NCBI RefSeq assembly: GCF_000430585.1
Contig: NZ_AUMH01000001.1
Location: 62,001-126,000 of the forward strand
Source of the DNA: Alicyclobacillus herbarius DSM 13609
GTDB taxonomy: Bacteria; Bacillota; Bacilli; Alicyclobacillales; Alicyclobacillaceae
Direction: 5' to 3'
Length of the DNA: 64,000 bases
Numbering within the stretch: the first letter of the stretch is position 1; every line of letters begins with the position of its first letter. The position numbers were made by a program, and so were the translations under genes. The notes beneath the pieces are model-generated. The model was not told the DNA's origin. It worked only from the letters and a program-made list of their open reading frames with translations, and searched no databases. Shown here in pieces: positions 25,319-41,990 of the stretch.

Positions 25319-25355
25319 CCAGCCTGCCGTTGGACGACAACGGCTTCGATTGAGT

Positions 25356-25547
25356 GTCCGGAAAGGGGTCAGGTAAGACCCAAGCAGCGCGAGGAAGTTA
25401 GCCCAAAATGCGATCCGAGCGTACGTTTCTGGGTACGTGAGGGGGGCCTGGTCCCCAGTGGGGACCGTTTAGGCCGGGCGATAGCCCCGGAGCCTTTTGG
25501 ACGCTGACGAAGCAATGTGCCGGGGGAGTTCTGACCCCTTTCCGGAC
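25356..25547. repeat. Palindromic repeat, long form
   Basis: A 192-base element between infC and rpmI with perfect 17-base inverted ends: GTCCGGAAAGGGGTCAG (25356-25372) and its exact reverse complement (25531-25547). The inside is strongly self-complementary (GGTCCCCAGTGGGGACC; GGCCGGGCGATAGCCCCGG). It begins, after the arm, with GTAAGACCCAAGC, which is shared with the copy at 26202. There is no coding capacity. It resembles REP/MITE-type elements. Confidence 0.85.
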
Positions 25548-25588
25548 CACCTCTTAGAACGTGAATCATGGAAATGGAGGACGTATAT

Positions 25589-25783
25589 ATGCCAAAGATG
25601 AAAACGCACAGTGGGACAGCGAAACGCATCAAGAGGACGGCTTCTGGCAAGCTGAAGCGGCCGCATGCGTTCGCCTATCACAAGGCGGTCAAAAAGTCGC
25701 CTGCACGCAAGCGGCGGCTGCGTGGAACGACCCTGGTGTCGAACAGCGATTTGCGCCGCATCAAACAGATGATTGCCCACTAA
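25589..25783 (+). CDS. rpmI: Ribosomal protein L35
   Basis: A 64-residue basic protein starting MPKMKTHSGTAKRIKRTASG, the usual L35 N-terminus, with a Lys/Arg-rich body. ATG at 25589 after ATGGAGG. Part of the infC-rpmI-rplT operon. Confidence 0.97.
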   Translation: MPKMKTHSGTAKRIKRTASGKLKRPHAFAYHKAVKKSPARKRRLRGTTLVSNSDLRRIKQMIAH

Positions 25784-25831
25784 CCCAGATCATCCCGGAA
25801 CTGAACCAGCATGTGAGGAGGAACAGGACTC

Positions 25832-26191
25832 ATGGCACGCGTAAAAGGTGGCATGGTGACACACCGTAAACATAAAAAGATCCTGAAAATGGCCCGCGGG
25901 TATCGCGGATCCAAGCACCGTCTGTTTCGTACCGCGAAGCAGCAGGTGTGGAAGTCTCTACAATACGCCTATCGGGATCGCCGCAATCGCAAACGCGACT
26001 TTCGCCGTTTGTGGATTCAGCGCATCAATGCCGCGGCCCGCATGAACGGTCTGTCGTACAACAAGTTTGTCCACGGCCTGAAGTTGGCGGGCGTTCAGGT
26101 GAACCGCAAGATGCTCGCGGACCTAGCGGTCACAGACAAGCAGGCGTTTACCGAACTGGCCAACGTCGCCAAGTCGAAACTGGAGGCGTAA
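25832..26191 (+). CDS. rplT: Ribosomal protein L20
   Basis: A 119-residue protein starting [20 protein letters not shown], with the long basic N-terminal helix and [20 protein letters not shown] in the globular domain. It is essential for early 50S assembly and is the likely repressor acting on the leader upstream of infC. Confidence 0.97.
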
Positions 26192-26201
26192 TGAATTGCG
26201 T

Positions 26202-26263
26202 GTCCGGAAAGGGGTTGGGTAAGACCCAAGCCGTTCGATGGGAGTTTTGACCCCTTTCCGGGC
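26202..26263. repeat. Palindromic repeat, internally deleted form
   Basis: A 62-base copy starting GTCCGGAAAGGGGT and ending ACCCCTTTCCGG, located 10 bases after the rplT stop. It keeps the internal GTAAGACCCAAGC and GGGAGTT of the 25356 element but lacks about 130 bases between them, so it is a shortened derivative. Confidence 0.8.
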
Positions 26264-26290
26264 AGCCGCTATAAATTGGATACGTCCATT

Positions 26291-26317
26291 CCCGGCGGAA
26301 GTCCGCCGGGTTTTTCG
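26291..26317 (+). terminator. Terminator of the infC operon
   Basis: Perfect eight-base-pair stem CCCGGCGG/CCGCCGGG with AAGT loop, then TTTTTCG. Confidence 0.9.
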
Positions 26318-26363
26318 TAACTGGCGACAGCAGCCGGCGCTCCAGTCTCGGGAGGGAAAAGAC

Positions 26364-27140
26364 ATGTACATTGAGTCGGCCGCCAACGACAGAGTCCGTG
26401 CTTGGGCGCGTCTCAAAACGCGGCGCGGGAGGACCCAGCAGCGGGCCTTTTTGGCGGAAGGGCCGCGCCAGCTGCAAGAGGCGCTGGCCGCCAGGGTTGA
26501 AATTCTGGCCGTGTTGTGGGATGTGAGCCGGGATGAGCTGGATACGGAAGTGCAGCGCGAATTGGCTCGTCGGAGCATTCCGTTTGTGGAGCTTTCTCCA
26601 CAGGCGTTTGCGGCAGTGTCGGATACCGTGACCCCGCAAGGGGTGATCTCGGTAATCCGTTTGCCCGAGCCCGGAGCCGTGAAACTTCCGGCCCGCTGCG
26701 TCATGTTGGACGGTATTCAGGACCCAGGCAACGTCGGCACGCTGCTGCGCACCGCGGAGGCGTTCGGGCTGACGCACGTCTGCTGCGCGAAAGGCACGGC
26801 CGATCCGTTTTCCCCGAAGGTGGTTCGGGCGGCAATGGGTGGGTTGTTTCGGCTTACCGTCATAGAGCAATCGGCCCTCGATTTTGTTCGTGACTGGCGC
26901 GCGGAGTGGCCGGACGGACAGGTGCTGGCAGCGGGTGCGGACGGATCGGCCGAATGCCATAGACTGGACTATCGACGGCCGACGCTGATGGTGATTGGCA
27001 GCGAGGCGCATGGGGTCTCGCAACTGGTTCAGCAAGCGGCAGACCACGAGGTGCGCATTCCCATGCCTGGCGGTGCAGAAAGCTTGAACGCTGCCGTGGC
27101 GGGAGCCATCCTGTTGTATGAGATGACGCGTCCAACTTGA
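26364..27140 (+). CDS. TrmH/SpoU-family RNA 2'-O-methyltransferase
   Basis: A 258-residue SPOUT methyltransferase. An N-terminal substrate-binding domain (RTQQRAFLAEGPRQLQEAL) is followed by the knotted catalytic domain: motif 1 DGIQDPGNVGTLLRTAEAFG, motif 2 LMVIGSEAHGVS and motif 3 IPMPGGAESLNAAVAGAILL. It methylates a ribose in rRNA or tRNA. Its place after rplT matches Bacillus ysgA, but the exact nucleotide target is not known. ATG after GGGAGGG. Confidence 0.9.
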   Translation: MYIESAANDRVRAWARLKTRRGRTQQRAFLAEGPRQLQEALAARVEILAVLWDVSRDELDTEVQRELARRSIPFVELSPQAFAAVSDTVTPQGVISVIRLPEPGAVKLPARCVMLDGIQDPGNVGTLLRTAEAFGLTHVCCAKGTADPFSPKVVRAAMGGLFRLTVIEQSALDFVRDWRAEWPDGQVLAAGADGSAECHRLDYRRPTLMVIGSEAHGVSQLVQQAADHEVRIPMPGGAESLNAAVAGAILLYEMTRPT

Positions 27141-27141
27141 A

Positions 27142-27804
27142 TCAGCTCTGTCCGCCGACGGACGGTGGTTCTTCTCTGGACACCCCGGTCGCTTTTGTGA
27201 CGGAATCCATCTTCCGCTTGAGCCAGCGGTGGAACCACCAGTACGCCGCGGCTAAGGCGGCCACGATGAGGATGGCGGGCAAAAGATACTTCTGCCAATC
27301 GGCAAGCACCGCATGAATCATTTGTTCAATCAAAGAACCGGCCAGGATGAACGGCGCTGTCCAGAGCAAGGATGCTACCAGCATCACCGGGGCATAGATG
27401 ACCAGGCGAATGCGGTTGATGCCCGCAATATACGGCACAAAGATCCGCACAAACGCAATGTAGCGTGAAATCAACAAAGTGGGTACAGTATACTTGGCAA
27501 AGATGGCGTCGGCCTGCGCCAGTTTATCTGGGGTAAGGCGGACATAGCGGCCGTAGCGAAGCAGAAACGGGCGACCGAGCACTCGGCCCAGCAGATATGC
27601 CACCATCGATCCGGCATACGTGCCAAACGTGGCCGCGACGATGAGCCAAAAGAGGCTGATTTGCCCGTCTGCGCGCTGGGCGAGCACGCCCGCAGCGGTT
27701 AACGTAGTTTCGCCAGGAACCGGTACGAACAGATATTCCAGTGCGAGGGCGCCACAGATGCCCCAATACCCATAGACCTGCATCAGGTGTTCAATAAAGT
27801 GCAC
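27142..27804 (-). CDS. DedA-family membrane protein
   Basis: A 220-residue polytopic protein with the DedA/VTT-domain signatures: YLFVPVPGETTLTAAGVLAQ with the acidic Glu in a re-entrant loop, GSMVAYLLGRVLGRP, and ISRYIAFVRIFVPYIAGINR with conserved arginines. Family members are thought to translocate undecaprenyl phosphate or phosphatidylethanolamine across the membrane. The C-terminus is a Lys/Arg-rich cytoplasmic tail. It is convergent with the methyltransferase gene, with one base between stops. Confidence 0.88.
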   Translation of the reverse strand: MHFIEHLMQVYGYWGICGALALEYLFVPVPGETTLTAAGVLAQRADGQISLFWLIVAATFGTYAGSMVAYLLGRVLGRPFLLRYGRYVRLTPDKLAQADAIFAKYTVPTLLISRYIAFVRIFVPYIAGINRIRLVIYAPVMLVASLLWTAPFILAGSLIEQMIHAVLADWQKYLLPAILIVAALAAAYWWFHRWLKRKMDSVTKATGVSREEPPSVGGQS

Positions 27805-27928
27805 GGGCCTCTTCCTTTACCGCGAATTTGAGCACACAAACTGTCTACAGGTATCTTATCAGTGACCATGACAGCCGTGCTAGGGTGTTTCTGGCACGGA
27901 ATACGGCAATTTTTCGAGGGACTGAGCC

Positions 27929-28453
27929 ATGATGGGGAACGCATACAATATGTGGGTGGTGCCGCTATTGGCGATGCTGGTGGCACAGGTCTTGAAGCCC
28001 ATCCTGCTGATGGTGCGCCTGCGCCGCTGGGACTGGAAAATGATGAAACAGTCTGGCGGTATGCCGAGTTCACATACCGCCCTTGTCGTCGCGCTTGTCA
28101 CGGAACTGTGGTTGCGCGAGGGGGGAAGTAACCCTGTCTTGGCCATTGCCATGTTTGTTGCCCTGATTGTCATGTACGATGCGGCGGGCGTGCGCTGGCA
28201 GACGGGCAGGCACGCGGCTGTCCTCAATCAACTGCTGCGCGACCTACAGGGGCGAAAAGACCTGTTTCAATCGTCCGAAGAGTACGCTCCCCAGTCGGAT
28301 TCCTCCGCGCCCATCACGCGTTTGAACATCGTCAAGACGCCCTGGTGGTTGATTGACTGGCCGATTTTGAACGAACACGTCGGCCATAAGCCGACCGAAG
28401 TCCTGGGCGGCTGCGTGGTCGGGGTGCTGGTGGCATTGTGGGTGCACTTCTGA
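27929..28453 (+). CDS. yuiD: Divergent PAP2-family membrane protein
   Basis: A 174-residue membrane protein of the DUF212 (YuiD) family, distantly related to PAP2 phosphatases. The hallmarks are SGGMPSSHTALVVAL (the SxxxH phosphatase motif), VMYDAAGVRWQTGRHAAVLN, and LNEHVGHKPTEVLGGCVVGV with the second catalytic His. It probably dephosphorylates a lipid phosphate. ATG at 27929. Confidence 0.9.
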   Translation: MMGNAYNMWVVPLLAMLVAQVLKPILLMVRLRRWDWKMMKQSGGMPSSHTALVVALVTELWLREGGSNPVLAIAMFVALIVMYDAAGVRWQTGRHAAVLNQLLRDLQGRKDLFQSSEEYAPQSDSSAPITRLNIVKTPWWLIDWPILNEHVGHKPTEVLGGCVVGVLVALWVHF

Positions 28454-28632
28454 CCTCGCCCGCTCCCCCAGGGTTCCGCCGCACCCCATGCTACGGCCCT
28501 TCGTTTGTCTTTCCCCAGCCCTGCCTCTCCAGACCTTGGGCTTTTGCCCATCTCTCCATGGACTAGTTCCGCATTCGCCCTGCTCGCATATAGTGGGCTC
28601 TGACCACCCTACAAGTGCGAGGAGGAGGGTGC

Positions 28633-28854
28633 ATGGATAAACAATGGCGCTTCTACCGTCCTTATCGGAGTCCGTTTGACCCGTGTGCGCCCAAACGTGT
28701 CAAGGCATACATCGTTCCGCCCAATCAATTCATCTCGTTTCAACCGTCAGGGCTTAAGCAGTTTTCTCCGCACGAGGCGCTGCGCAAAGGGACATTATGG
28801 CCGGACCTGTACAGTCCGTATGAGCCGCCCGTACGGGAGGAGGTCGACCCATGA
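28633..28854 (+). CDS. cotJA: Spore coat protein CotJA
   Basis: A 73-residue protein, MDKQWRFYRPYRSPFDPCAP, with the IVPPNQFISFQPSGLKQFSPHEAL body of CotJA. GGAGGAGGG before the ATG. First gene of the cotJABC operon, which encodes polypeptides of the inner spore coat made in the mother cell. It overlaps cotJB by four bases. Confidence 0.93.
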   Translation: MDKQWRFYRPYRSPFDPCAPKRVKAYIVPPNQFISFQPSGLKQFSPHEALRKGTLWPDLYSPYEPPVREEVDP

Positions 28855-29114
28855 CGCGCCCGGTGCCGAAAGAGTACTACCGATATTTGTACGAGCTGCA
28901 GGCCGTGGACTTCGTCTTGGTCGAATTGACGCTTTACCTCGATACGCACCCGGACGACCAGCCGGCCGTAAGCCAGTTTCATCAGTACCAACGCCGCAAG
29001 CAGGCGTTGATGCAGCAGTTTGAACAGGCTTTCGGTCCCTTGCTTGAGTTCGGGAACAGCCCGGTGGGGGCACATTGGTCCTGGAATGACAGCCCGTGGC
29101 CGTGGCAGGTCTGA
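28851..29114 (+). CDS. cotJB: Spore coat protein CotJB
   Basis: An 87-residue protein with the family core YRYLYELQAVDFVLVELTLY and a C-terminal W-rich segment HWSWNDSPWPWQV, typical of CotJB. It is coupled to cotJA by an ATGA overlap and followed by cotJC after 67 bases. Confidence 0.93.
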   Translation: MTRPVPKEYYRYLYELQAVDFVLVELTLYLDTHPDDQPAVSQFHQYQRRKQALMQQFEQAFGPLLEFGNSPVGAHWSWNDSPWPWQV

Positions 29115-29181
29115 CAGGCGCCCTGATACATCGAGCGTGCCAACCACTTGTCGACGGGCATCGGGAGGGTGATGATGCGGT

Positions 29182-29749
29182 GTGGATTTATGAGAAGAAG
29201 CTTCAATACCCAGTCAAGGTTTCAAAGTGCGATCCCCGTTTGGCGAAGTACCTGATTGAGCAGTACGGCGGGGCCGACGGCGAACTCGCGGCGGCCCTGC
29301 GTTATCTGAACCAGCGATATACCATACCAGACAAGGTGATAGGTCTGTTAACAGATATCGGAACGGAAGAGTTCGCCCACCTTGAGATGATTGCCACGAT
29401 GGTCTATAAGCTGACCAAAGATGCCACCCCAGAACAGTTGAAAGAGGCGGGGTTGGGTGACCACTACGCAGACCACAGCTTCGCGCTGCACTACCACAAC
29501 GCGGCCGGCAACCCGTTTACGGTCACGTATATCCAAGCCAAGGGCGATCCGATTGCCGATTTGTACGAAGACATTGCGGCCGAAGAGAAGGCGCGCGCGA
29601 CCTATCAGTGGCTCATCGATTTGACCGACGACGTGGATATCCAGGATAGCCTCAAGTTTCTGCGTGAGCGCGAGGTTATCCACTCGCTACGCTTCCGCGA
29701 GGCGGTGGAAATCCTAAAAGAGTACCAGAGCGAGAAAAAAGTGTTTTAA
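29182..29749 (+). CDS. cotJC: Spore coat protein CotJC (manganese-catalase fold)
   Basis: A 189-residue protein, MWIYEKKLQYPVKVSKCDPR, with the ferritin-like four-helix fold of manganese catalases. Metal ligands are seen in IGTEEFAHLEMIATMV and ADLYEDIAAEEKARATYQWL and the final HSLRFREA. It may destroy peroxide in the spore coat. GTG start at 29182 after GGAGGGTGATG. Its stop overlaps the convergent pabB stop by four bases. Confidence 0.93.
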
Positions 29750-31581
29750 GACGGCGCCTTCCCGGGCCGTAGCTTAACCGGCACGAAACCGCGCACGCTG
29801 TTCACCAGCCACAACCGCTCGGCTCGTTCCACATCCACCTTGGACAACGAGCGCTCCAGTATCCGTCCCTGGCGGATGAGCCAACGGCGCAGGGTGCCAT
29901 CGAGGAGCCCGCATGAACAAGGCGGTGTGTAAAGATGGCCCCTAATCTCGGCCACTAAGTTACCAATGGTAAACTCGGTGGCCTCTTCGCGCTCATTCCA
30001 GAGCAGCACGTCAAACACGTCCCCGGCCTCCCGACGATGGTGATCGTAGACCGTGCGGAGCGTAGTCTTATGGAACAGGAACGGATTGTGGCTGTCCACT
30101 GGCGACTTCGCCCAACGAACGGGTTGCGCCTCACCCTCGGGGATGAGAGACAGGGGCGTTGCCTCCGTGGTGAGGCGGCCTTCCCGGTCTGCGAGCAGTC
30201 GCACCCGCCAACTGCCCGTTGGGTGCGTCGCGGCGACCTCTTGCAGTCGCTCTTGCACCCGACGGGCGTCGAGGCGAAAGCGAAAGTAATGGGCCGAGTC
30301 CAGCAACCGCTCCATGTGTTCTGCCAACAAGTGAAACCGTCCGTCCACGAGGCGGAGCGTCTCCAGCAGCTGGAAGGGAGGACGTGGACGTAAAACAGCC
30401 TCCGTCTTGAGCAGAGCCTCTTGATACTCCTCCTCTGCCCCGGAGTCCCAGGTGATGCCACCCCCGGTTCCGTATACCGCAACATCGTGTTCGTAATCCA
30501 CCACAAGCGTGCGAATCGCGACGTTGAATATAGCCTGCCCTCCAGGGGTGATGTAGCCCATGGTGCCGCAATAAACTCCCCGGGGCTCCGTCTCCAACTG
30601 GGTAATGTGAGCCATCGTCTGTGCCTTCGGCGCCCCGGTTACCGATCCGCATGGAAACAGTGCGGCTAGGATGTCGAACCACGAAACTCCAGGCCGAACC
30701 TGAGCGGACACGGTGGAAGTCATCTGCAAGGCGGTTGGGTAGACCTCGACATCGAACAGTGAGTCAACCTGCACCGTCCCCGCCTTCGCGATTCGCCCTA
30801 AATCATTGCGCAGCAGGTCGACAATCATGACGTTTTCCGCGCGGTTTTTCTCCGACTTTCGCAGGGCTTGAATGTGGGCTTCATCCTCCGCGTTCGTGCG
30901 TCCGCGCGGATAGGTTCCTTTCATCGGACGCGTTTCCACCCGGTTTCCGTCGAAGCGAAAAAATAGCTCGGGCGACAGCGAAGCGATACCGAAGTGGCCA
31001 AGTTCCAGACACGCGGCATACGGCGGGGCCGGGGAATCGAGACAGGTTCGAAACCAGTCCCAGGCGGAATTCAGACTCTTCGCTTTCATGCGAAAGGTAT
31101 AATTGACTTGATAGGTCTCCCCGTCGGCGATGGCGTCTCGAATGGTGCGAATGGCGGCATTGTAGTCGGCTTGAGATAAATTCGGTTCCCACCTGAGTTC
31201 AGGCGCCATGCCTGGCTCATTGGCGTCCTGGGACGCTGTGCCCGAACGGGAATCTGGCAAGGGGCCCGAGGCCGAGAGTACAGGATGGCGAAAGAGGCCA
31301 AACCAGACCAACGGCAAACTACCTTGTGCTGGACGGGTAACCAACACAGGGTCAAACGCCGGTGCCGCTTCGTAAGCCACGAATCCGGCTGCGTATTGAC
31401 CTTCCCGGCAAGCTCGCTGTACGTGTCTGAGCGCCGGTAGAACTTCATCCACGCGGTATGCGGTGACCACCTCGTCCGGTTGAGTGAAGACCAGCGGATG
31501 TGTTCCGAGAGATGCGTCCGCGGTTTGTGCAAAGGCGAAATAGGCAAACGGGGGTGTGTGCGGCTGGTAGCGAATGCGTAT
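29746..31581 (-). CDS. pabB: Aminodeoxychorismate synthase component I fused to aminodeoxychorismate lyase (PabB-PabC)
   Basis: Makes 4-aminobenzoate for folate. The chorismate-binding half has GETYQVNYTFRM, the MKGTYPRGR loop, RAENVMIVDLLRNDLGRI and FPCGSVTGAPKAQTM. From about residue 410 a branched-chain-aminotransferase-like lyase half follows, with ETLRLVDGRFHLLAEHMERL and the PLP lysine in FLFHKTTLRTVYDHHR. The first standard start in frame is GTG 31470. However, homologous sequence (FAYFAFAQTADASLG, HPLVFTQPDEV) continues 37 codons upstream to ATA-CGC-ATT-CGC after GGAAAGGCGTG. I therefore extend to 31581 and infer a rare ATA/ATT start or a mutated ATG. The PabA partner is elsewhere. 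Confidence 0.85.
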   Translation of the reverse strand: MRIRYQPHTPPFAYFAFAQTADASLGTHPLVFTQPDEVVTAYRVDEVLPALRHVQRACREGQYAAGFVAYEAAPAFDPVLVTRPAQGSLPLVWFGLFRHPVLSASGPLPDSRSGTASQDANEPGMAPELRWEPNLSQADYNAAIRTIRDAIADGETYQVNYTFRMKAKSLNSAWDWFRTCLDSPAPPYAACLELGHFGIASLSPELFFRFDGNRVETRPMKGTYPRGRTNAEDEAHIQALRKSEKNRAENVMIVDLLRNDLGRIAKAGTVQVDSLFDVEVYPTALQMTSTVSAQVRPGVSWFDILAALFPCGSVTGAPKAQTMAHITQLETEPRGVYCGTMGYITPGGQAIFNVAIRTLVVDYEHDVAVYGTGGGITWDSGAEEEYQEALLKTEAVLRPRPPFQLLETLRLVDGRFHLLAEHMERLLDSAHYFRFRLDARRVQERLQEVAATHPTGSWRVRLLADREGRLTTEATPLSLIPEGEAQPVRWAKSPVDSHNPFLFHKTTLRTVYDHHRREAGDVFDVLLWNEREEATEFTIGNLVAEIRGHLYTPPCSCGLLDGTLRRWLIRQGRILERSLSKVDVERAERLWLVNSVRGFVPVKLRPGKAPS

Positions 31582-31698
31582 CTCGGATCACGCCTTTCCA
31601 GACAGGGAATTCTAGTGGGTTCCTTACGAGCCTATTATAAAAGACGGCGAAACTTGAGAGGACAGTGAGATTTAAGAGGAAAAGGAGAGCATAAGAGG

Positions 31699-32904
31699 AT
31701 GTCGTCTTCACGCCAGCGCTCAAACCGCCCGTCCCACGTTCTGTTTTATCTGGTGACCATGCTGTACTGGTTCGCGATGTATACGTACGTTCCGATTTTG
31801 TCCCCGTATATCCGAGCCATCGGCGGCAGTTACTTCTTTGTCGGTGTGGTCATTGGCAGTTACGGGTTTACCCAGATGCTGCTGCGGGTTCCGCTCGGGA
31901 TTTGGTCGGACCGGTTGGGACGCCGGAAATTGTTTATTGTCTCGGGGGTGGCCTGCGCGGCTCTCTCCAGCCTGGGCTTTGCCCTGACCAGCGACAGTTG
32001 GTCCGCTTTGGGCTGGCGAGCTCTGGCCGGGGTGGCGGCTGCCAGTTGGGTCGCGTTCACCGTCTTTTTTTCCAGTTCCTTTCCGCCCGAGGAAGCGCCG
32101 CGGGCCATGGGCCTCATCAGTCTCTACACCAGTCTCGGACAGATGGCCGCCACCACGTTGGGGGGATTTTTGGCTGAGGATTACGGGTGGCACGCGCCGT
32201 TTTGGGTCGGAGCCGGCGGTGGTTTGCTGGGACTCGTCTTGGCCTTCTTCATCCGCGAATCGGTGACGGTGGCGCGGACCCCGGCGCGGGTTGGTGAACT
32301 GCTGCGGATGGGGAGGAGTTGGCCGCTCCTGTCCGTGTCGCTGTTGGCCATTTTCGGGCAGAGCGTGACCTTTACCACCATGTACGGGTTTACCAGTCTG
32401 GCCGCTGTGCACATCGGCGCGTCGAAGGCCGCACTGTCCGTTTTGACACTGGCAACGACCCTGCCCAATGCAGTGGCCGGTTACGTCGGCGGGACCTATT
32501 TCGTGCGCTGGTTTGGGGAACGAGTGACCGTGTCTGCCGGATTTATTTGCGCCGCCTTGGCGACAGCCGTGGTTCCCGTTGTGCATACCCTGTTGGTGCT
32601 GATGCTGACCCAGGCGGTCAACGGTTTCGCCCAAGGCGTGTTGATCCCGATTTTGATGGGGTTGTCCATCCGTGCGGTCCCAGAAAATCGGCGCGCCACC
32701 GCCATGGGCTTCTTTCAGGCCATTTATTCCATCGGCATGTGCGCAGGACCGTTTGTGTCTGGTTGGTTGGGCCAGTGGCTCGGGCTGTCGGGGGTATTCT
32801 GGTTCACCGCCTGTGTCAGCGTCATCGGCGGACTCTTATGCCTGATATGGATTCCCAGGGTCCGGCTGTTAAAGCCGACCTCCACGACGGCTCGTGTTGG
32901 GTAA
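31699..32904 (+). CDS. MFS transporter
   Basis: A 401-residue protein with about 12 transmembrane segments. Motif A lies after TM2 as GIWSDRLGRRKLFIVSG. TM1 starts with SHVLFYLVTMLYWFAMYTYV. It looks like a drug-efflux or metabolite-export member, and nothing fixes the substrate. ATG at 31699 with AAAAGGAGAG upstream. Divergent from pabB; their shared promoter region is about 115 bases. Confidence 0.88.
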   Translation: MSSSRQRSNRPSHVLFYLVTMLYWFAMYTYVPILSPYIRAIGGSYFFVGVVIGSYGFTQMLLRVPLGIWSDRLGRRKLFIVSGVACAALSSLGFALTSDSWSALGWRALAGVAAASWVAFTVFFSSSFPPEEAPRAMGLISLYTSLGQMAATTLGGFLAEDYGWHAPFWVGAGGGLLGLVLAFFIRESVTVARTPARVGELLRMGRSWPLLSVSLLAIFGQSVTFTTMYGFTSLAAVHIGASKAALSVLTLATTLPNAVAGYVGGTYFVRWFGERVTVSAGFICAALATAVVPVVHTLLVLMLTQAVNGFAQGVLIPILMGLSIRAVPENRRATAMGFFQAIYSIGMCAGPFVSGWLGQWLGLSGVFWFTACVSVIGGLLCLIWIPRVRLLKPTSTTARVG

Positions 32905-33136
32905 CCAATGGTGTAGGCTGGCCCTGGCCCGCGTCAGGTGCGCAGGTCTCGTGTGGAGCGAACACCGCTCGACTCAGGTACCGCGCATGACCAGAAGGCC
33001 AGGGGCATATCGTTGGAAGCAGGGTTTTCTGGCATCAATGTGGAATAAGAAAAGTGATTGAGTGCGAATTGGTGGATTCGTAGGGTAAATATGCTTTGGT
33101 GGCATTCGTGAAAATTCTCTGAAAAGGAGAATCGCC

Positions 33137-33586: not shown

Positions 33587-33632
33587 GCAAAGCCGAATGA
33601 GGAGTTGAGCCTGCAAAGAGTAGGGAGGATGG

Positions 33633-34466
33633 GTGTTGCCTGGAATTGCACCGCGCTTGCACGAAAACGGGTACATTGCCGATGAGGACCTCGCCGCGAT
33701 GGTGGATCTGGCGCTATCCCTGAAGCGTCCGCTGTTGCTGGAGGGACCCGCAGGCGTCGGCAAGACCTCGCTGGCTGTGGCGTTGTCTCTCGCGCTGGGT
33801 CGTGAATTGGTCCGCCTGCAGTGCTACGAAGGCCTGGATGCGGCTGCGGCTGTGTACGACTGGAACTACCACAAGCAGCTGGCCGACCTCTCGCGACACG
33901 CGGATGCAGACGTCTTCACCGAGCGGTACTTCTTGCCGCGGCCACTGACACGGGCCCTCCTTTCCGACGGCGGGGCCGTGTTGTTGATTGATGAGGTTGA
34001 TAGGGCGGACGCCGGTTTTGAAGCCTTGCTGCTGGAGTTTCTTGCCGAATTTCAGGTGAGCGTGCCCGAATGGCAGTCGATTACGGCCCGTGTCGAGCCC
34101 GTGGTCGTAATTACGTCCAATCGCACGCGCATGCTCAGTGACGCCTTGCGTCGGCGTTGCTTGTATCACAGCCTCACCTGGCCCAGCCCACAGGAGGAGC
34201 GTGAGGTATTGCGTCTGCATGTTCCGGGTCTGCCCCTGAGTGCAGCGGAGAATTTGGTGCAAGCGGTTCAGCAAATGCGTTCCTGGGATCTGCAGAAACC
34301 GCCTGGACTCGCGGAGACCATCGACTGGGGGCAAGCCTACCTGGTCTCGCACGGTACGTGGACGTACGAATGGGTGTCACGCACCTTGGGCTGCGTCATC
34401 AAGGACAGCCTGGACCTCGAGACGGTACGTGCCCGTCTGGCGCAGTTGGTGGAACCGGATACCTGA
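33633..34466 (+). CDS. MoxR-type AAA ATPase (CoxD-like)
   Basis: A 277-residue AAA+ ATPase. Walker A is GPAGVGKTSLAVAL near residue 37, Walker B is VLLIDEVDRAD, sensor 1 is VVITSNRTRMLSDALRRRC. CoxD-type ATPases pair with a VWA protein to insert the sulfurated Mo or copper centre in Mo-hydroxylases. Start GTG 33633 after AGGGAGG. It is followed by the VWA gene in the same frame 39 bases after the stop. Confidence 0.88.
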   Translation: MLPGIAPRLHENGYIADEDLAAMVDLALSLKRPLLLEGPAGVGKTSLAVALSLALGRELVRLQCYEGLDAAAAVYDWNYHKQLADLSRHADADVFTERYFLPRPLTRALLSDGGAVLLIDEVDRADAGFEALLLEFLAEFQVSVPEWQSITARVEPVVVITSNRTRMLSDALRRRCLYHSLTWPSPQEEREVLRLHVPGLPLSAAENLVQAVQQMRSWDLQKPPGLAETIDWGQAYLVSHGTWTYEWVSRTLGCVIKDSLDLETVRARLAQLVEPDT

Positions 34467-34505
34467 AAGAAACCGGTTTCCTCCCTCTTTCAGGCGCAAC
34501 GGGCG

Positions 34506-35318
34506 ATGGACCGGGCGGTACAAGCGCAGTCGCTGGCACCTCGTACGTCGCCTTTGCTTCCGGTAGGAAGGCTGGGGATGGGGCGTGCCAGCCGCGGTGC
34601 AGGGGGAGACATCGACGGTTTACCTCCGCACTTGCCAACCTGGGCGGCGCGGCCGATTCAGGCGGTTGGGCTGCCGCTGATGCGCAGTCGTCGCTCTTGG
34701 GGTAAGCGCGGCGCCAGCGGCGTCGACTGGCGTCGTTCCCTCCGGGAATGGACGAAGACGGGGCAACTAGGACCTGACTTTGTCGCGCGGCGTTCCCGCT
34801 TCCAGTCAGGGCGCTTGGTCGTCCTCTGGGATGTGTCGGCGTCGATGGCCGAGTTTATTCCGCTGTACATGCCTTGGGTGTACGCGCTCGTCCGCGACTT
34901 GCCACAAGTGGGCGTGTTTTTGTTTGCCCACCGTCTCGTCGAGGCAACGGCGTTGTTTCACCGGCCGTACCCGGGTACATGCCAGGCGCTGCAGAGCCTG
35001 CGCCAGCTTTGGCGCGGTGGGACCCGCTTGGGCGACACCGCCGCAGAGTGGGTTCAGCGCCAGGGATCGAATTGGCTTTCGGAAACTACGACCGTCCTCG
35101 TCGTCAGCGACGGATGGGACGCGGGCGATCCGGCTGTGCTGGCGGACGCGCTGCGCGCGATGCGAAAGGCGGGCAGCCGCATCTTATGGGTTCATCCCTG
35201 GCTGGGGACGCCTGGGTTTGAACTGAAAACTCGCGCCCTCCTCGCGGCTAGACCGTACGTGACCCGGATGTACCCAGGTCATTCGGTCCCCGATTTATTG
35301 CGTGTGGCCTGGGAATGA
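34506..35318 (+). CDS. VWA-domain protein (CoxE-like), short N-terminus
   Basis: A 270-residue protein. The C-terminal VWA domain carries the MIDAS motif as WDVSASMAEF (D-x-S-x-S), followed by RGGTRLGDTAAEWV and VVSDGWDAGDP. It is the usual partner of the MoxR ATPase upstream. CoxE proteins are generally longer; this one lacks the first 100 or so helical residues. No ribosome site is evident before the ATG at 34506. It lies in the same frame as the ATPase, right after its stop, so a lost or moved N-terminus or coupled reinitiation is possible. Confidence 0.8.
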   Translation: MDRAVQAQSLAPRTSPLLPVGRLGMGRASRGAGGDIDGLPPHLPTWAARPIQAVGLPLMRSRRSWGKRGASGVDWRRSLREWTKTGQLGPDFVARRSRFQSGRLVVLWDVSASMAEFIPLYMPWVYALVRDLPQVGVFLFAHRLVEATALFHRPYPGTCQALQSLRQLWRGGTRLGDTAAEWVQRQGSNWLSETTTVLVVSDGWDAGDPAVLADALRAMRKAGSRILWVHPWLGTPGFELKTRALLAARPYVTRMYPGHSVPDLLRVAWE

Positions 35319-35496
35319 GAGGCGGTCGTCCGGGTTCGTGGTTGCTACGCAAGGCAGGTAAGTGCCATGCCTTCGCGTCAAGTTGACCCCGGACGGACCC
35401 TTCATCGCCTAGTGGATACGAATTCGGAACTCGAAGGGAGGGTCGCGGCGCTCCTCCCCATGCCGGACCGTGGGGGGCCAAGCGCCGCACACTTCG

Positions 35497-36327
35497 ATGA
35501 AACCAGTCTCGTTTTCCTATGTCCGACCGCATTCCCTGGCGGAAGCCCTCGACATTCTGGCCCATGAGCCGGATGCCAAGGTGATTGCGGGCGGGCAAAG
35601 CCTGATTCCACTGATGAATTTCCGCCTCAGTCGACCGAGTGTGCTGGTAGACATCAATGGACTGACAGAACTGACAACGATTGAAGTGGTGCACGGCCGC
35701 CTGCGTATCGGGGCGGTGGTGCGGCATCAGCAGCTGCATACCGATTCAACCGTGCGGGCATGCTTCCCGGCTTTGGCGGAAGCGGCTGGCGAAATCGGGC
35801 ACTGGGCCATTCGCACCCGCGGCACCATCGGCGGATCCTTGGTGCATGCGGATCCCGCGGCGGAGCTGCCTGCAGCCATGGTTGCGGCGGGCGCGGAATT
35901 GGTGCTGCAAAGCGCCGATGGCGTCCGGCGCGTGCCTGCGGACGAGTTTTTCTATGGCTATCTCATGACCGGAATTGGGACGGATGAAATTTTGACGGCA
36001 GTGGAGCTACCGGTGCCGACCGAGACTCGTTTTGGGTTTGCGGAGCACGCGCGGCGTCCCGGAGATTTCGCCCTTGCTGGGGCGTTTGTCGAGGTGTACG
36101 CCGGAGGCGGCGCGGGGGCCGTGACCTGGTTTGGCGTGGGCGGCCGACCGGAACGCCGCGAGCTGGAACTGCCTAGCGAGGGCTTGCGGCGGCAACAAGT
36201 TTTCGCGGAGGCGCTGGTCGACGTGGACGCTCCCGAAGACGAAGACGAGGCTTGGTACCGTCGACGGATTGCCCAATCGGCCGCCGAACAGGCGTACCAA
36301 CGAGCCGTGGCTGGGAGGGGGATGTGA
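35497..36327 (+). CDS. Molybdenum hydroxylase FAD-binding (medium) subunit
   Basis: A 276-residue subunit of the xanthine dehydrogenase/CO dehydrogenase family. The FAD motifs are VIAGGQSLIPLMNFRLS (AGGQSL) and IRTRGTIGGSLVHADPAAEL (TIGG). It passes electrons from the iron-sulfur subunit to an acceptor. ATG at 35497 (MKPVSFSYVRP); a GTG at 35470 is in frame. It overlaps the next start. Order medium-small-large is the cox order. Confidence 0.9.
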   Translation: MKPVSFSYVRPHSLAEALDILAHEPDAKVIAGGQSLIPLMNFRLSRPSVLVDINGLTELTTIEVVHGRLRIGAVVRHQQLHTDSTVRACFPALAEAAGEIGHWAIRTRGTIGGSLVHADPAAELPAAMVAAGAELVLQSADGVRRVPADEFFYGYLMTGIGTDEILTAVELPVPTETRFGFAEHARRPGDFALAGAFVEVYAGGGAGAVTWFGVGGRPERRELELPSEGLRRQQVFAEALVDVDAPEDEDEAWYRRRIAQSAAEQAYQRAVAGRGM

Positions 36328-36329
36328 AG

Positions 36330-36899
36330 ATGTCTGTGCGTGAGTATTCGACGGCCAATCGGCCCACAACCCGAGTGACGCTGGTGGTCAACGGCCATCG
36401 GCATACGCTGGACGTGGAACCACGGTGGCTGTTATCGGATGTCCTGCGCCATCAGTTGGGTCTCACCGGGACTCACGTCGGGTGTGAGCAGGGGGTCTGC
36501 GGCAGCTGCACCGTTCTCGTCGACGGGCAGCCTCAGCGCAGTTGTCTCTTGTTTGCTGTACAGGCGGAAGGGCATGAAATCACGACCATCGAGGGATTGA
36601 CCCCGGAACAGGGCTTGAGTCCATTGCAGGCAGCGTTTGAGGAACATCACGCCCTGCAGTGCGGATTTTGTACGCCGGGCATGATTGTCACGGCCGAAGC
36701 GCTACTCAGGACCTGCCCGAACCCGGACGAGGCGAGGATTCGTGACGTGATATCGGGGAATGTTTGCCGCTGCACCGGTTACCAGTCGATTGTGGAGGCG
36801 GTGCTAAGCGCGGCCCGCGCCCGCCATGAACCCACGGCGGGGCAGACCGAAGCGGCGGTCGATGGACGGGAAGCGGCGACAGGAGGGAATGGGGCATGA
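36330..36899 (+). CDS. Molybdenum hydroxylase 2Fe-2S (small) subunit
   Basis: A 189-residue protein with a plant-type 2Fe-2S domain, CEQGVCGSC from Cys52, and the second cluster domain CGFCTPGMIVTAEALL and VCRCTGYQSIVEAV. A C-terminal extension of about 30 acidic/Gly-rich residues follows. The start is ATG 36330 with GGGAGGGG nine bases upstream; GTG at 36324 is an alternative. It overlaps the large subunit by four bases. Confidence 0.92.
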   Translation: MSVREYSTANRPTTRVTLVVNGHRHTLDVEPRWLLSDVLRHQLGLTGTHVGCEQGVCGSCTVLVDGQPQRSCLLFAVQAEGHEITTIEGLTPEQGLSPLQAAFEEHHALQCGFCTPGMIVTAEALLRTCPNPDEARIRDVISGNVCRCTGYQSIVEAVLSAARARHEPTAGQTEAAVDGREAATGGNGA

Positions 36900-39229
36900 C
36901 ACTCACTCCAGGGCCACTCAAACCACGCCTCACCGGCGCGCGGGTGACGCGGCTGGAAGATGCGCGTCTGTTGCGCGGCCGAGGACGTTACCTGGATGAC
37001 ATCGATCTCCCCGGAACGCTGCATGTAGCGTTTGTCCGCTCCAATCGCGCGGCGGCGCGGATTCGCGCGATTGACGTGGCGGAAGCGGCGGCGCTGCCTG
37101 GTGTGCACGCGGTATGGACGGCGGACGATTGTGACATTTCCTTATATACCAAGCACTACGAAGTCGGCCAGCCCGTGCTCGCCAAGGACGAGGTTCGTTA
37201 CGTCGGCGAACCCGTCGTGGCGGTGTTCGCACAAGACAGATACATTGCTGAAGACGCGGCGGAGTTGGTGCGTATCAGCTACGACCCGCTGCCGCCGGTT
37301 CTCGACGCGGCTGCGGCGCTGTCGCCGCAAGGACGGCGCGTGCATGCGCACCGGGACAACGTTTTTCATCATACTGAACATGAAACGGAAGGCTTCGCCG
37401 AGGTGTTCGCCAGCGCGCCCCATAAGGCGCAGGCCACGTTTGTGACACACCGGCAGACCGGCGTCTCCATGGAGCCGCGAGGCTGCATGGCGCAGTTGGA
37501 CCCCGCCACCGGACGCTTGACGGTATACGTTTCCCACCAATCGCCGCACCAGTTTCGTTCTCAGCTCACGGAATTGTTGCGGATGCCGGAAAACCAGATT
37601 CGCGTGGTAGTGCCTGAGGTCGGCGGGGCGTTTGGCATCAAGGCGATGCTCTATCCGGAATACCTGCTTGTCGCCGACGCCGCCAGGCGGCTCGCGCGCC
37701 CGGTAAAATGGGTCAGCGACCGGACGGAGAGCCTGTTGGCGGACGCGCACGCGCGCGACAATCGCCACGAGGTAGAGGTCGCGTTTGACGATGAAGGACG
37801 GATTTTGGCGGTTCGGGACCATGTCTTTGGGGATACCGGCGCCTACCCGTTTTTAGGTTTTCCAGGCGCCGTCGGGGAAGCCGGCTGGGCCACGAGCATG
37901 TTGACCGGTCCGTATAAGATTCCGCACGTGTCCATCACGGTGGATTGCTTCTTTAGCAACAAAGCGCCGGTGGGTGCCTACCGCGGCGTCGGAGGCCCGG
38001 TCGGGGCGCAGGTGCAGGAGGGAATTGTCGAGTTGGTGGCCCGCCAACTCGGAAAAGACCCTGCTGACGTGCGCCGCGTCAATTTCATTCGCGATGAGGA
38101 CTTTCCGTACCACACGGCCACCGGCAATGTGTACGATCCCGGTTCCTACGCGGAGTCGATGGAGCAGGCGCTGGCGCTGATTGATTACGAACGCTTTCGG
38201 CGTGACCAGGAGACGTGGCGCCGGCAGGGAAGGTACCTGGGGATTGGCATCTGCACGTTCGTCGAACCGTCAGCAGGCGCCGAGTCGGAGGCCGGATCGA
38301 CCCCGTACGAGGCGGCATCGATTCGTATTGAGCCGACCGGAACTGTGACGGCCGCGCTGGGGCTAGGACCGTCTGGGCAGGGCCACGAGACGACCATGGC
38401 GCAGTTGATTGCGGACGAACTCGGCGTGGACATCGGCGATGTGGTGGTCATCCACGGGGATACGGACAGCGCTCCCTTCGGCGGGGGCACCGGTGGCAGC
38501 CGATCGGGGACCATCGGCGGCGGTGCGGCCATTGTGGCCAGCCAGAAGCTGCGGCAGCGGCTGGTCAAGCTGGCTGCGCACCTGTTGGAGGCGGCGGAGG
38601 AAGATGTCGAGCTGGTCTCGGGCCATGCCCAGGTCCGAGGGGTGCCGGCACGCTCGTATTCGATTCAGGATCTAGCCCGCATTGCCTACACGGACGTCGC
38701 TCGACTGCCGGAGGACATGCAGCCGGGGCTGGAAGTCGTTGTGCGCTACAAGCCCCCCATGGCGACGACGTATTCCAACGGCACGCACGTGGCTCTGGTC
38801 GAGGTGGACACCCGCACGGGCTTCGTCAAGGTCCTCGATTATGCGGTGGTCAACGACTGCGGTCGCCTGATTAACCCGATGATTGTCGAAGGACAGATTC
38901 ATGGCGGCGTGGCTCAGGGCATTGGCAGCGCCTTTTTGGAGGAGCTGCGCTACGACGACAATGGGCAGCTGGTGACCACGTCGCTAATGGACTATCTGCT
39001 CCCGGCCGCGACCGATGTGCCGCGGATGCGGGTGGAACACATCGAAACACCCTCAGACAACGTCGGCGGTTTCAAGGGGATGGGAGAAGGGTCGCTGATT
39101 GCGGCACCCCCGGCGTTGGCCAACGCGGTTTCCGACGCGTTGGCGCCATTTGGTGTGCTGGTTACGGAAATCCCGATTCGTCCGCAGCAAATCGTCAGAT
39201 GGGTGGAACAGGGTAGTCATACTGCCTGA
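36896..39229 (+). CDS. Molybdenum hydroxylase large (Mo-pterin) subunit
   Basis: A 777-residue catalytic subunit of the xanthine oxidase family. It has GRGRYLDDIDLPGTLHVAFV at the start, the Mo-cofactor contacts EVGGAFGIKAM and FGGGTGGSRSGTIGGGA, and the general-base Glu731 in KGMGEGSLIAAP. The active-site loop reads AYRGVGG (Ala361-Gly367). True CO dehydrogenases have AYxCSFR with a Cys that binds copper; form II enzymes have AYRGAGR. So this is not an aerobic CO dehydrogenase by loop sequence, and an aldehyde or N-heterocycle hydroxylase is more likely. Substrate unknown. Confidence 0.9.
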   Translation: MTLTPGPLKPRLTGARVTRLEDARLLRGRGRYLDDIDLPGTLHVAFVRSNRAAARIRAIDVAEAAALPGVHAVWTADDCDISLYTKHYEVGQPVLAKDEVRYVGEPVVAVFAQDRYIAEDAAELVRISYDPLPPVLDAAAALSPQGRRVHAHRDNVFHHTEHETEGFAEVFASAPHKAQATFVTHRQTGVSMEPRGCMAQLDPATGRLTVYVSHQSPHQFRSQLTELLRMPENQIRVVVPEVGGAFGIKAMLYPEYLLVADAARRLARPVKWVSDRTESLLADAHARDNRHEVEVAFDDEGRILAVRDHVFGDTGAYPFLGFPGAVGEAGWATSMLTGPYKIPHVSITVDCFFSNKAPVGAYRGVGGPVGAQVQEGIVELVARQLGKDPADVRRVNFIRDEDFPYHTATGNVYDPGSYAESMEQALALIDYERFRRDQETWRRQGRYLGIGICTFVEPSAGAESEAGSTPYEAASIRIEPTGTVTAALGLGPSGQGHETTMAQLIADELGVDIGDVVVIHGDTDSAPFGGGTGGSRSGTIGGGAAIVASQKLRQRLVKLAAHLLEAAEEDVELVSGHAQVRGVPARSYSIQDLARIAYTDVARLPEDMQPGLEVVVRYKPPMATTYSNGTHVALVEVDTRTGFVKVLDYAVVNDCGRLINPMIVEGQIHGGVAQGIGSAFLEELRYDDNGQLVTTSLMDYLLPAATDVPRMRVEHIETPSDNVGGFKGMGEGSLIAAPPALANAVSDALAPFGVLVTEIPIRPQQIVRWVEQGSHTA

Positions 39230-39243
39230 TGGCTCGCTCTCCA

Positions 39244-39300
39244 TGAAGCAAGGGCCTGTCCGGCCTCGGGTCGGGCGCGCTCTTGCTTCTCTTTCTCTTT
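39244..39300 (+). terminator. Probable terminator of the hydroxylase cluster
   Basis: Imperfect stem AAGCAAGGGC...GCGCTCTTGCTT followed by CTCTTTCTCTTTC. Confidence 0.5.
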
Positions 39301-39359
39301 CGGCCTGGAAAAGAGTAGACTGAGAATAAACACCTGTGTCACGGGGGGAGCGGGCCGAA

Positions 39360-41930
39360 GTGGGTAAAGAGAGTGGTCAAAGCCTGTTGTTCACCGTCAA
39401 CATCTATGCGTTTGCCCTCAACTTTCAGTCCTCCGCGCTGTTGACCATTGCGGTGCCGGCCCTGTTGATTCGATTGTCCCCGGCCCAACACACCGCCGCC
39501 TTGGCGCAGTTGGCCACCTTGAGCGCCTTGGTCGCCATGATTATCCCGCCTGTGGTGGGGTTTTCGGCTGATCGGGGGATGCTGGGCGGCCGCCACGGTA
39601 GCATCCGCATTGGCGGCGCGCTGAACGCGCTGGGGCTTGTCGGCATGTACCTGGCGCAAGACTACACCTGGTTTGTCGTCTGTTGTCTGGTGACGATGCT
39701 CGGTCACAGCATGGCCACGGTGGCCTACCAGGCGCTTTGGTCGGAGGTGGTGCCGCCATCTCTGCGCGGCGTCGCGTCCGGCTATAACGGGGCTGCGATT
39801 TTGCTGGGCACGATTTTCGGGCTGGTGACGGCCGCTTGGTCACCCAAGGTTTCGCTCTTACCGATGGCTGGCGTAATTTGTGCCGGATTTCTTATCACCA
39901 CCGTCTGTCTGCCGCGTTCTAAGTCCACACCTCGCTCCTCGGTTGCCCAACGGCTCGGACGGCGAGGAAATTTTGTCCGCGTTTTCTTGGCTCAGACGCT
40001 GATTTCGTTTGGTATGACCTTGTTGATGACGTTTGTCCTGTACTTTTTTCACGACGTGCTGCGGATTTCCAATCCGTCTCAGGACACAGCCTTCGTCGCT
40101 GGGCTGTCGCTTATCGGTTCGGTGGGGGCCAGCATTTTCCTTGGACGTTTCGCGCATGCAGGGAGACGTCGTCGCCTGACCGCTGTCTCCATTCTGCCGA
40201 TGGCGGTAGCTGCGGGCGGCTTCGCCTTTTTACAGTCCGAACAGTGGATCTTGGGCTTTGCGCTGTTGTTTGGTCTCGGCTATGGGGGGTTCTTGGCCAC
40301 CAGTTGGGCGCTGACGGTCGATGTTCTACCCGACATGGAGCACGCCGGCCGAGACCTCGGGATTTGGGGGGTGGCCTCGGCCATTCCCACAGTGCTCGCG
40401 CCGATGGTGGGCGGGGTGATTCTCACGACGGCCGCCACGCCAGCGTCCGGTTACCGGAACTTGTTTCTCTTGGCGGCTGCCTCCTTTCTAGCTGGTGCCT
40501 GGGTGGTCTGGTCCATTCGCGCGCAGGCGGTTTCGCGAGCCGAGACGAATGCCGTGTCCCAACGTTTACCATCCCCTTGGTGGGGGGCGCCGCTGCGCGT
40601 ATTCGTTTCCGCCTTGGTTGCTGGCTACGTACGTCTCGCCTATCGGGTTCGCTTTTTCGACCGCATCCCGAAGATGAGTGGCCCCACGCTGGTGATTTCG
40701 AATCATCAACACGATTTAGAAGGCATGGTCATCCCGGCTTGGCTCACGCTCCGTACGGGGTGGCGCCATCCGATTCACTATGTGGCCAGTCAGCGTTTGT
40801 TTGAACCAGGGTTTCTCGCGTTTCGCGGTCCAAACTGGCTGCGCCCTTTATTGTACCGGCTGAACCTGCATCGTCTATTTCCAATACTTGGTTTGGTGCC
40901 GATTGAAAACCAGCCGTTGGCGCGGCCCATCCACAGCTACGCGTACGAAGCCCGTACCCTGCTGGGTGACGTTCCGCTATCGCAGGTGTTTACCGACGCG
41001 TGGCTTGCGCGCCTCAACCTGCCCGGGCATGTACGGTTGTCCGCTTTGTGGGGGCGGCGATGGGCTGAGCGTGGCCAAATACGGGCGCCCATGACCTGTT
41101 TGGTCCCGGAGGTACGCAAACAACTGCGTGTAGGGCAGCGCGCCCGCATCGAACGGCAGCTGGCCGAGATCCGCATGGTGTTCGAGTCTGGACGGACCCT
41201 TTACCTGACGCCCGAAGGGCGGTATTCTCAGGACGGAAAAATGACGCGTTTTCGTCAGTCGTACAATGAACTGGCCCCGTGGGCGAGGGCGCTCTACGCC
41301 TTTGCTCTGAGTTACGATCCGTACCTAAACCGGAGACTGACGCTCTATATTCGCATCGTTTCCATCCCAGCCCACCTGCGGACGGATGTGGACGCCGTCA
41401 ACGCCCTCTTGGCGGCAGCGCGCCCGGTCACCGTCAGTCAACTGATTTGTACGTGGTTGTCGAAGTTGCCGAGCGGGACGGTGTTTGCGCTGGAAGAGGC
41501 TTGCGCGGGTTTCCGCCAGGTCCTCTGTGCCTTGCCGCCCGGCGCGCAGTTGGTGCCGGAGGTGGCGGATGAGGGGCAGCTAGGCCCACATCTCGTGCCG
41601 GAAGCGGTCGAGAAGACGCATCTGACGGAGGCGACCGCGCGCGTGTTGAGGGGGATGATCCGCCAAGGAAGCCTGGAACGGTTTGGGGCAGGCGGATTCC
41701 GTTTGCAGACGTGCCACCGGCACGAGAAGTTTCCGGACGTCGAAGACATGATTCACTTTCAGGCGACCGTCTTATCGGAAACGTGTGAGGCGTTGGTGTA
41801 CATACAGGAGGAGCACCTCGGTTCGCATTCGGTGGCGGCTACCGACGGGGGTGTACGGGTGGGCACCGGGGCTCGTGGTACGCCAGCCAATCCAGAGGGG
41901 ACTGCGGCGCCGGGAGCGGACTCGTTATAA
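39360..41930 (+). CDS. MFS transporter fused to a PlsC-like acyltransferase
   Basis: An 856-residue fusion. Residues 1-400 form a 12-helix MFS domain (SLLFTVNIYAFALNFQSSAL; SEVVPPSLRGVASGYNGAA). From about 420 a lysophospholipid-acyltransferase-like domain follows, with GPTLVISNHQHDLEGMVIPA and LYLTPEGRYSQDGKMTRFRQ (motif III, near residue 617). The first motif is HQHDLE, not the standard H-x4-D, so activity may be altered. The layout recalls the LplT flippase plus Aas acyltransferase, which import and re-acylate lysolipids. Start GTG 39360 after GGGGGGAG; an in-frame GTG at 39336 lacks a site. The last 70 residues are low-complexity. Confidence 0.8.
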   Translation: MGKESGQSLLFTVNIYAFALNFQSSALLTIAVPALLIRLSPAQHTAALAQLATLSALVAMIIPPVVGFSADRGMLGGRHGSIRIGGALNALGLVGMYLAQDYTWFVVCCLVTMLGHSMATVAYQALWSEVVPPSLRGVASGYNGAAILLGTIFGLVTAAWSPKVSLLPMAGVICAGFLITTVCLPRSKSTPRSSVAQRLGRRGNFVRVFLAQTLISFGMTLLMTFVLYFFHDVLRISNPSQDTAFVAGLSLIGSVGASIFLGRFAHAGRRRRLTAVSILPMAVAAGGFAFLQSEQWILGFALLFGLGYGGFLATSWALTVDVLPDMEHAGRDLGIWGVASAIPTVLAPMVGGVILTTAATPASGYRNLFLLAAASFLAGAWVVWSIRAQAVSRAETNAVSQRLPSPWWGAPLRVFVSALVAGYVRLAYRVRFFDRIPKMSGPTLVISNHQHDLEGMVIPAWLTLRTGWRHPIHYVASQRLFEPGFLAFRGPNWLRPLLYRLNLHRLFPILGLVPIENQPLARPIHSYAYEARTLLGDVPLSQVFTDAWLARLNLPGHVRLSALWGRRWAERGQIRAPMTCLVPEVRKQLRVGQRARIERQLAEIRMVFESGRTLYLTPEGRYSQDGKMTRFRQSYNELAPWARALYAFALSYDPYLNRRLTLYIRIVSIPAHLRTDVDAVNALLAAARPVTVSQLICTWLSKLPSGTVFALEEACAGFRQVLCALPPGAQLVPEVADEGQLGPHLVPEAVEKTHLTEATARVLRGMIRQGSLERFGAGGFRLQTCHRHEKFPDVEDMIHFQATVLSETCEALVYIQEEHLGSHSVAATDGGVRVGTGARGTPANPEGTAAPGADSL

Positions 41931-41935
41931 GAACA

Positions 41936-41961
41936 GTCCGGAAAGGGGCCCCTTTCCGGAC
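41936..41961. repeat. Palindromic repeat, minimal form
   Basis: A 26-base perfect palindrome: GTCCGGAAAGGGG followed directly by its reverse complement. It is the arm of the 25356 and 26202 elements with nothing between. It lies five bases after the stop of the MFS-acyltransferase gene and could act as a terminator-like hairpin, though no U-tract follows. Confidence 0.85.
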
Positions 41962-41990
41962 ACGCACTATCCATTGGAGGAGAGACCACG

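Follow-up and report, generated by a model that had tools for sequence, protein, structure and literature searches.

Palindromic elements in the infC-rpmI gap and at two further sites of Alicyclobacillus herbarius: an old miniature inverted-repeat family, probably moved in trans by an IS1182-like transposase

Three palindromic elements lie in the window, a 64,000-nucleotide stretch of the genome of Alicyclobacillus herbarius DSM 13609 (contig NZ_AUMH01000001.1, positions 62,001 to 126,000 of the forward strand): one between infC and rpmI, one after rplT and one before an aminotransferase gene (copies 1, 2 and 3; Table 1). They are best explained as copies of a family of miniature inverted-repeat transposable elements (MITEs) that is old in the window genome and was probably inserted in trans; the enzyme would be the DDE transposase encoded by an IS1182-like insertion sequence (IS) of the same bacterial family. 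Assignment to a MITE family follows from dispersed copies, from empty sites in relatives and from 5-bp TWWWA duplications outside the tips of the elements; matching ends and duplications point to the DDE transposase as the enzyme that would have inserted them.

Dispersed copies and empty sites

The sequence was re-read in the window, and the three palindromes lie where an earlier note on this DNA had placed them. Exact 13-base arms (GTCCGGAAAGGGG) bound copy 1 (25356-25368 and 25535-25547) and, back to back, copy 3 (41936-41948 and 41949-41961); copy 2 has one exact arm (26202-26214) and a partner with one mismatch (26251-26263). With up to two mismatches allowed, the window contains 11 arm matches, six of them the arms of the three copies, compared with a mean of 2.3 and a maximum of 7 in 100 shuffles. 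The internal sequence GTAAGACCCAAGC is common to copies 1 and 2, as noted earlier. The limits of the elements were moved outwards by about 6 bases on both sides of the palindrome (Table 1; the limits of copy 3 are approximate), because the target duplications of young copies in relatives start outside the tips.

In the whole genome of the window strain (G000; 3.31 Mb in 57 contigs), the arm GTCCGGAAAGGGG occurs exactly 17 + 25 = 42 times, compared with zero matches for its reversed control. A 16-base arm with up to three mismatches gave 121 matches against 38 in the control, so that decayed remnants outnumber exact copies. BLAST with copy 1 recovered near-complete relatives at 93, 90 and 70% identity (C13, C22 and C1:241747), together with many partial ones. 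Among 61 genomes drawn from the species itself, its family, order and class, 11 contain the exact arm, and apart from G000 (42) counts are high only in G003 (63) and G018 (136; assembly 82% complete), two species that belong to a different genus of this bacterial family; the two same-genus species, G001 and G002, have 2 exact arms each. Matches to a 14-base arm were found in 7 of 41 genomes of the bacterial family, four of which have one or two only. The nearest named ThrS, from Alicyclobacillus sp. ALC3, is 79% identical and points to Alicyclobacillaceae as the probable bacterial family. A MITE search of a plasmid collection returned no match, and viral contigs gave two 16-base matches. The elements are under-represented within open reading frames (ORFs): tested against raw ORFs of at least 150 aa, without gene calls, 1 of 38 elements in G003, 1 of 29 in G018 and 12 of 36 in G000 lie wholly inside an ORF, compared with 63%, 65% and 76% of random stretches, respectively.

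Neither same-genus species carries an element at any of the three window sites, and in both the infC-rpmI gap measures 57 bases compared with 270 in the window. Across the genomes printed for each site, the copy 1 site is empty in 8 of 8 other genomes, the copy 2 site after rplT in 4 of 4 and the copy 3 site before the aminotransferase gene in 2 of 2; the window copies are thus insertions. The alternative raised earlier, a local terminator duplication with the arm at only three places and the same sequence at the same sites in relatives, is at odds with 42 arms and with these empty sites. The elements had also been described as lying a few bases from gene ends; this holds for copy 2, which begins 4 bases 3' of the rplT stop, and for copy 3, which starts directly after the stop codon of an ORF ending at 41930, and does not hold for copy 1, which is 31 bases past the infC stop and 35 bases ahead of rpmI.

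Tips, target duplications and the candidate partner

Asymmetric 6-base tips flank the palindromes of G003 and G018: one end has GTGYGT and the opposite end GAGGTT, both adjoining the arm GTCCGGAAAGGGG, with direct repeats beyond; the elements have inverted ends and measure about 40-285 bp including tips. Arms were paired when they lay 24-290 bases apart with at most four mismatches over the two arms combined and at most one in the better arm, which left out single or more decayed arms; the sample comprises the stretches fetched (36 elements in G000, 39 in G003, 29 in G018 and 1 in G029), those of G018 being part of 100 listed among its 136 exact arms. Immediately outside the tips, the two 5-base flanks are identical in 30 of 39 elements in G003, 17 of 29 in G018 and 5 of 36 in G000, whereas shuffled pairings gave means of 3.15, 1.83 and 0.32, respectively; at seven other offsets no identical flank pair was found in any of the three genomes. 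Of the 52 identical duplications, 48 begin with T and 49 have A as their last base. We read this as insertion at TWWWA targets that duplicates 5 bp; it would be recent in G003 and G018 and long past in G000, where the family looks old and is probably no longer moving.

These duplications bear directly on the earlier description of a REP/MITE family (REP, repetitive extragenic palindromic) possibly moved by an IS200-like REP-associated tyrosine transposase (RAYT). RAYT movement, by a Y1 enzyme, is not known to leave a target duplication. The MITE half of the description is borne out by the duplications and the empty sites; the REP half fits neither those target duplications nor the tips GTGYGT/GAGGTT, and movement by a RAYT, for which no genome-wide gene search was made, finds no support, given copies in relatives with 5-bp duplications and ends common with a DDE-type insertion sequence. 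REP/REPIN elements resemble the present family in being small extragenic palindromes in many copies (PMC2817692, PMC3733652). The present family differs in its target duplications, in its IS-like ends and in its tips, which are not the GTAG or CGTC tags (PMC3733652) expected at the foot of a REP palindrome. An origin as REP/REPIN elements moved by a RAYT would explain why one genome contains many short palindromes, most of them extragenic; we nevertheless regard this origin as very improbable.

The candidate partner was recognized by its ends. The pattern of tip plus arm start occurs at 78 ends in G003, compared with 2 in the control. Such an end opens four G003 contigs at an identical position, and three of them share 126 bases running into GGAGGTGCGTTTT-ATG; we read this shared contig start as one end of an IS present in several copies, the interior of which would not have been assembled with it. 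GAGGTTGTCCGGAAAG is the end sequence of the IS in the related genus. The G003 IS end is identical to the GAGGTT end of the MITE over the first 16 bases and agrees with its GTGYGT end in 13 of 16; the MITE end matches the IS end of a further genome, G063 (probably A. fastidiosus), at 15 of 16 bases. A different contig-start end, GAGCGTGTCCGGAAAGCTTCAG after TATAA, was seen at the start of G003 contig C220 (L297 1-126); it perhaps belongs to a second related insertion sequence.

Transposase relatives are present in 10 of 59 genomes of the order, with 16 copies in G063, and a plasmid of A. fastidiosus gave the same match at nearly the G063 coordinates. The 13 G063 copies read are 1636 bp long with ends GAGCGTGTCCGAAAAG and GAGGTTGTCCGAAAAG, and 12 of them lie between identical 5-bp duplications such as TATAA, TTATA and TTTAA. 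Their transposase contains the domains DUF772 and DDE_Tnp_1, and its best match is the IS1182 model at 111.3 bits, compared with a curated cut-off of 270 bits. An IS relative in G038 carries GAGCGTGTCCGGAAAG at each of its ends, flanked on either side by TAATA; one in G023 (L338) shows one weak end only; and contig C148 contains a diverged relative with a decayed transposase, the second fragment of which matches the IS1182 model at 4.8e-07.

Several other candidates for a partner were rejected. An open IS1182-like ORF in G000 (C2:154845-156104; L320 1414-2772) has no similar tip pair within 1.5 kb on each side. The 2.5 kb between arms at C22:43711-46191 hold ordinary-looking genes, as does L108 2083-5057, whose outer 5-base flanks match (judged without a library search). 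No transposase was recognized by eye in L152 and L126, and a tip match in G007 (C284) falls within a long ORF.

A number of observations weigh against the proposed history. The likeness between MITE and IS is confined to the 16-base end, so that the MITE did not arise from these IS copies by a simple internal deletion. For the multi-copy IS of G003, the interior was looked for and not found, and the order-wide search for transposase relatives found none in G000 or G018. IS relatives in G015 (L335) and G047 (L339) have similar ends and unequal 5-base flanks. The window genome keeps identical duplications in 5 elements only, and near-matching flanks occur among the window copies at copy 1 alone (Table 1). 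At the copy 2 spot, relatives already carry TTTGCGT (TTTGCGTA) or AATTGCAT, resembling the left tip TTGCGT, so the boundary of copy 2 is uncertain; its flanks agree in 2 of 5 bases, giving no clear target duplication. The degenerate flanks of copy 3 agree in 1 of 5 bases by the 6-base tip rule and in 3 of 5 (TATAA/TATCC) with a 5-base left tip. Several of these points would suit a MITE moved by some other transposase, with the 16 common bases due to convergence or to an older common origin: nothing beyond those bases is shared, transposase relatives are missing from the search results for G000 and G018, and the GTGYGT end is imperfect. Tips, duplication length and the TWWWA target nevertheless all agree with the IS, and we consider another enzyme unlikely. 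Insertion in trans by the IS1182-like transposase remains our reading; given that no transposase relative was found in G000, movement there has probably ended.

Known systems offer partial parallels. The Methanosarcina acetivorans MITEs with the IS1182 partner ISMac2 (160-169 bp, 7-14 copies, inverted repeats of 25-26 bp; PMC3852290) are likewise non-autonomous, have inverted ends and are tied to an IS1182-type partner; for them a 4-bp duplication or none is tabulated, while the present family has 5-bp TWWWA duplications, far shorter palindromic forms and a partner that is only IS1182-like. ISPse1, an IS1182-family member of 1653 bp with 16-bp ends and 4-bp duplications (PMC3281130), is similar to the G063 IS in length and in its 16-base ends and differs from it in duplication length; the IS1182 model is the best match of the G063 transposase, at a score below the family cut-off. 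IS1272 replaces stem-loops and makes no duplication (PMC5678879), unlike the G063 IS with its duplicated flanks, at which no replaced stem-loop was seen. Literature searches with the arm sequence, and with Alicyclobacillus combined with miniature inverted-repeat, gave no match; the window family is absent among the matches listed for IS1182 MITEs and related terms; and the matched passage of a MITE review (PMC10969869) contains nothing on IS1182.

Long, deleted and minimal forms

The genome-wide comparison upholds the earlier description of a scattered family that has long, deleted and minimal forms. The spacing between arm ends in G003 is 143 bases in 20 of 39 elements and 36 bases in 11 of 39; with their tips, these forms measure 155 and 48 bp. 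Removing the interval between two GACCC repeats from a 143-base copy reproduces every letter of the 36-base palindrome, as a comparison with L096 showed. Identical 5-bp duplications of their own flank 9 of the 11 36-base elements of G003, and 11 of 14 G003 elements of up to 40 bases. Since near-identical short forms sit in different duplications, the pattern suggests that the 36-base form itself moved in the related genus; it would have arisen by one deletion between the GACCC repeats and may then have moved as such. None of the 13 shortest G000 elements has identical duplications, and the short forms may instead reflect repeated in-place shortening at the same GACCC repeats. Copy 2 of the window reflects a deletion different from the GACCC one, and copy 3 is a bare palindrome.

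A broader proposal is more tentative, and we put it forward as a possibility short of even odds: that the DDE transposase moves elements down to 48 bp, perfectly palindromic but for the tips, and that the long form is a platform in which a second hairpin module shifts its position and swaps complementary arms as one unit. If so, a near-minimal DDE substrate would be defined, in which two 16-base ends nearly adjoin, and hairpin arms would stay complementary through selection or template-switch repair. Movable 48-bp forms, if confirmed, would to our knowledge rank among the smallest DDE-moved elements.

Further variants were observed among the copies. Two twenty-base remnants in G003 consist of the tips around GTCCGGAC only, one between TGTTA and TCTTA (L284 2032-2051) and one between TATAA and TATAA (L288, about 2037-2056); they are probably the end point of deletion. 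In G000, a very short palindromic remnant directly adjoins a 190-base copy (C9:51095-51325; L016). A G018 subfamily (L149, L151, L152, L236, L237 and L243, of which L152 and L237 are fragments) has an extra GCCGCTGTTAGCGGC-like hairpin with adjoining bases near the GTGCGT end, and the central stem-loop of L243 4250-4403 seems inverted relative to other copies.

Inner hairpin module and the infC-rpmI operon

The strong folds of copy 1 (z of -6.0 and -5.8 on the two strands) would be explained if the family were one of structured RNAs or terminators retained for their function, for example in the ribosomal operon; copy 2 gives a z of -4.2. Folding of this kind is what inverted repeats must produce. 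The core alignment (26 chosen copies of 63 large ones) has a covariation term of 0.03, that is, no net covariation, with change on both sides in 6 of 34 pairs; an Rfam scan of the window matched tRNAs only, and no terminator-like site was found within copies 1 or 2. With the sites empty in all relatives compared, retention for function has very little chance of being the explanation.

Evidence in favour of such retention also comes from the inner hairpin module of about 45 bases (GGCCTGGTCNCCAGTGGNGACCGTTTAGGCCGGGCGAYAGCCCC). In the stretches read it was found at 31 distinct places, of which 30 have an arm within 250 bases, and its position along the long form varies (Table 1; L016 1621-1668; L007 1410-1452; L120 2105-2149). 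Among 18 chosen modules of the 31, cells with change on both sides number 23, compared with 9.8 in shuffles, a value reached in 0 of 500; 63 of the 500 shuffles reached the observed 5 of 15 pairs with a double change and 388 reached the observed number of pair types, and the paired changes partly track the split between G000 and G018 copies. Template-switch correction of palindromes is a known mechanism, and we treat co-change of the module arms, by selection or by such correction, as a lead.

Table 1. Features of the window, in positions of the 64,000-nucleotide stretch
Feature	Positions	Strand	Remarks
Copy 1, long form	25350..25553	+	204 bp; 192 bases between arm ends; 6-base tips TTGAGT and CACCTC
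Probable left target duplication, copy 1	25345..25349	.	TTCGA; 4 of 5 bases as in the right one
Probable right target duplication, copy 1	25554..25558	.	TTAGA
Left 17-base arm, copy 1	25356..25372	+	
Right 17-base arm, copy 1	25531..25547	-	
Inner hairpin module, copy 1	25442..25489	+	placed elsewhere in other copies
Copy 2, deleted form	26196..26269	+	62 bases between arm ends; tips TTGCGT and AGCCGC
Copy 3, bare 26-base palindrome	41931..41967	-	tips GAACA and ACGCAC
Native terminator-like hairpin after rplT	26291..26310	+	outside the family; kept in both relatives without copy 2

In mRNA, the arms would pair into a strong hairpin that lacks a T tract, for which reason copy 1 is probably not a terminator and may act as a structured spacer in the infC-rpmI gap. 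Beside it, the ribosome-binding site of rpmI is retained. We expect the effect on infC-rpmI-rplT and its L20 control, which the earlier note thought might be altered, to be that of a neutral to mildly regulatory spacer; copy 1 is thereby a natural test for a hairpin of about 200 nt between infC and rpmI.

Taken together, this is a new family of a familiar type, set apart a little by its unusually small palindromic form and by the hairpin module inside the long one. From three palindromes emerges a mobile family for which boundaries, a rule for target sites, relative ages and a candidate enzyme can be given, and its proposed movement in trans is directly testable.

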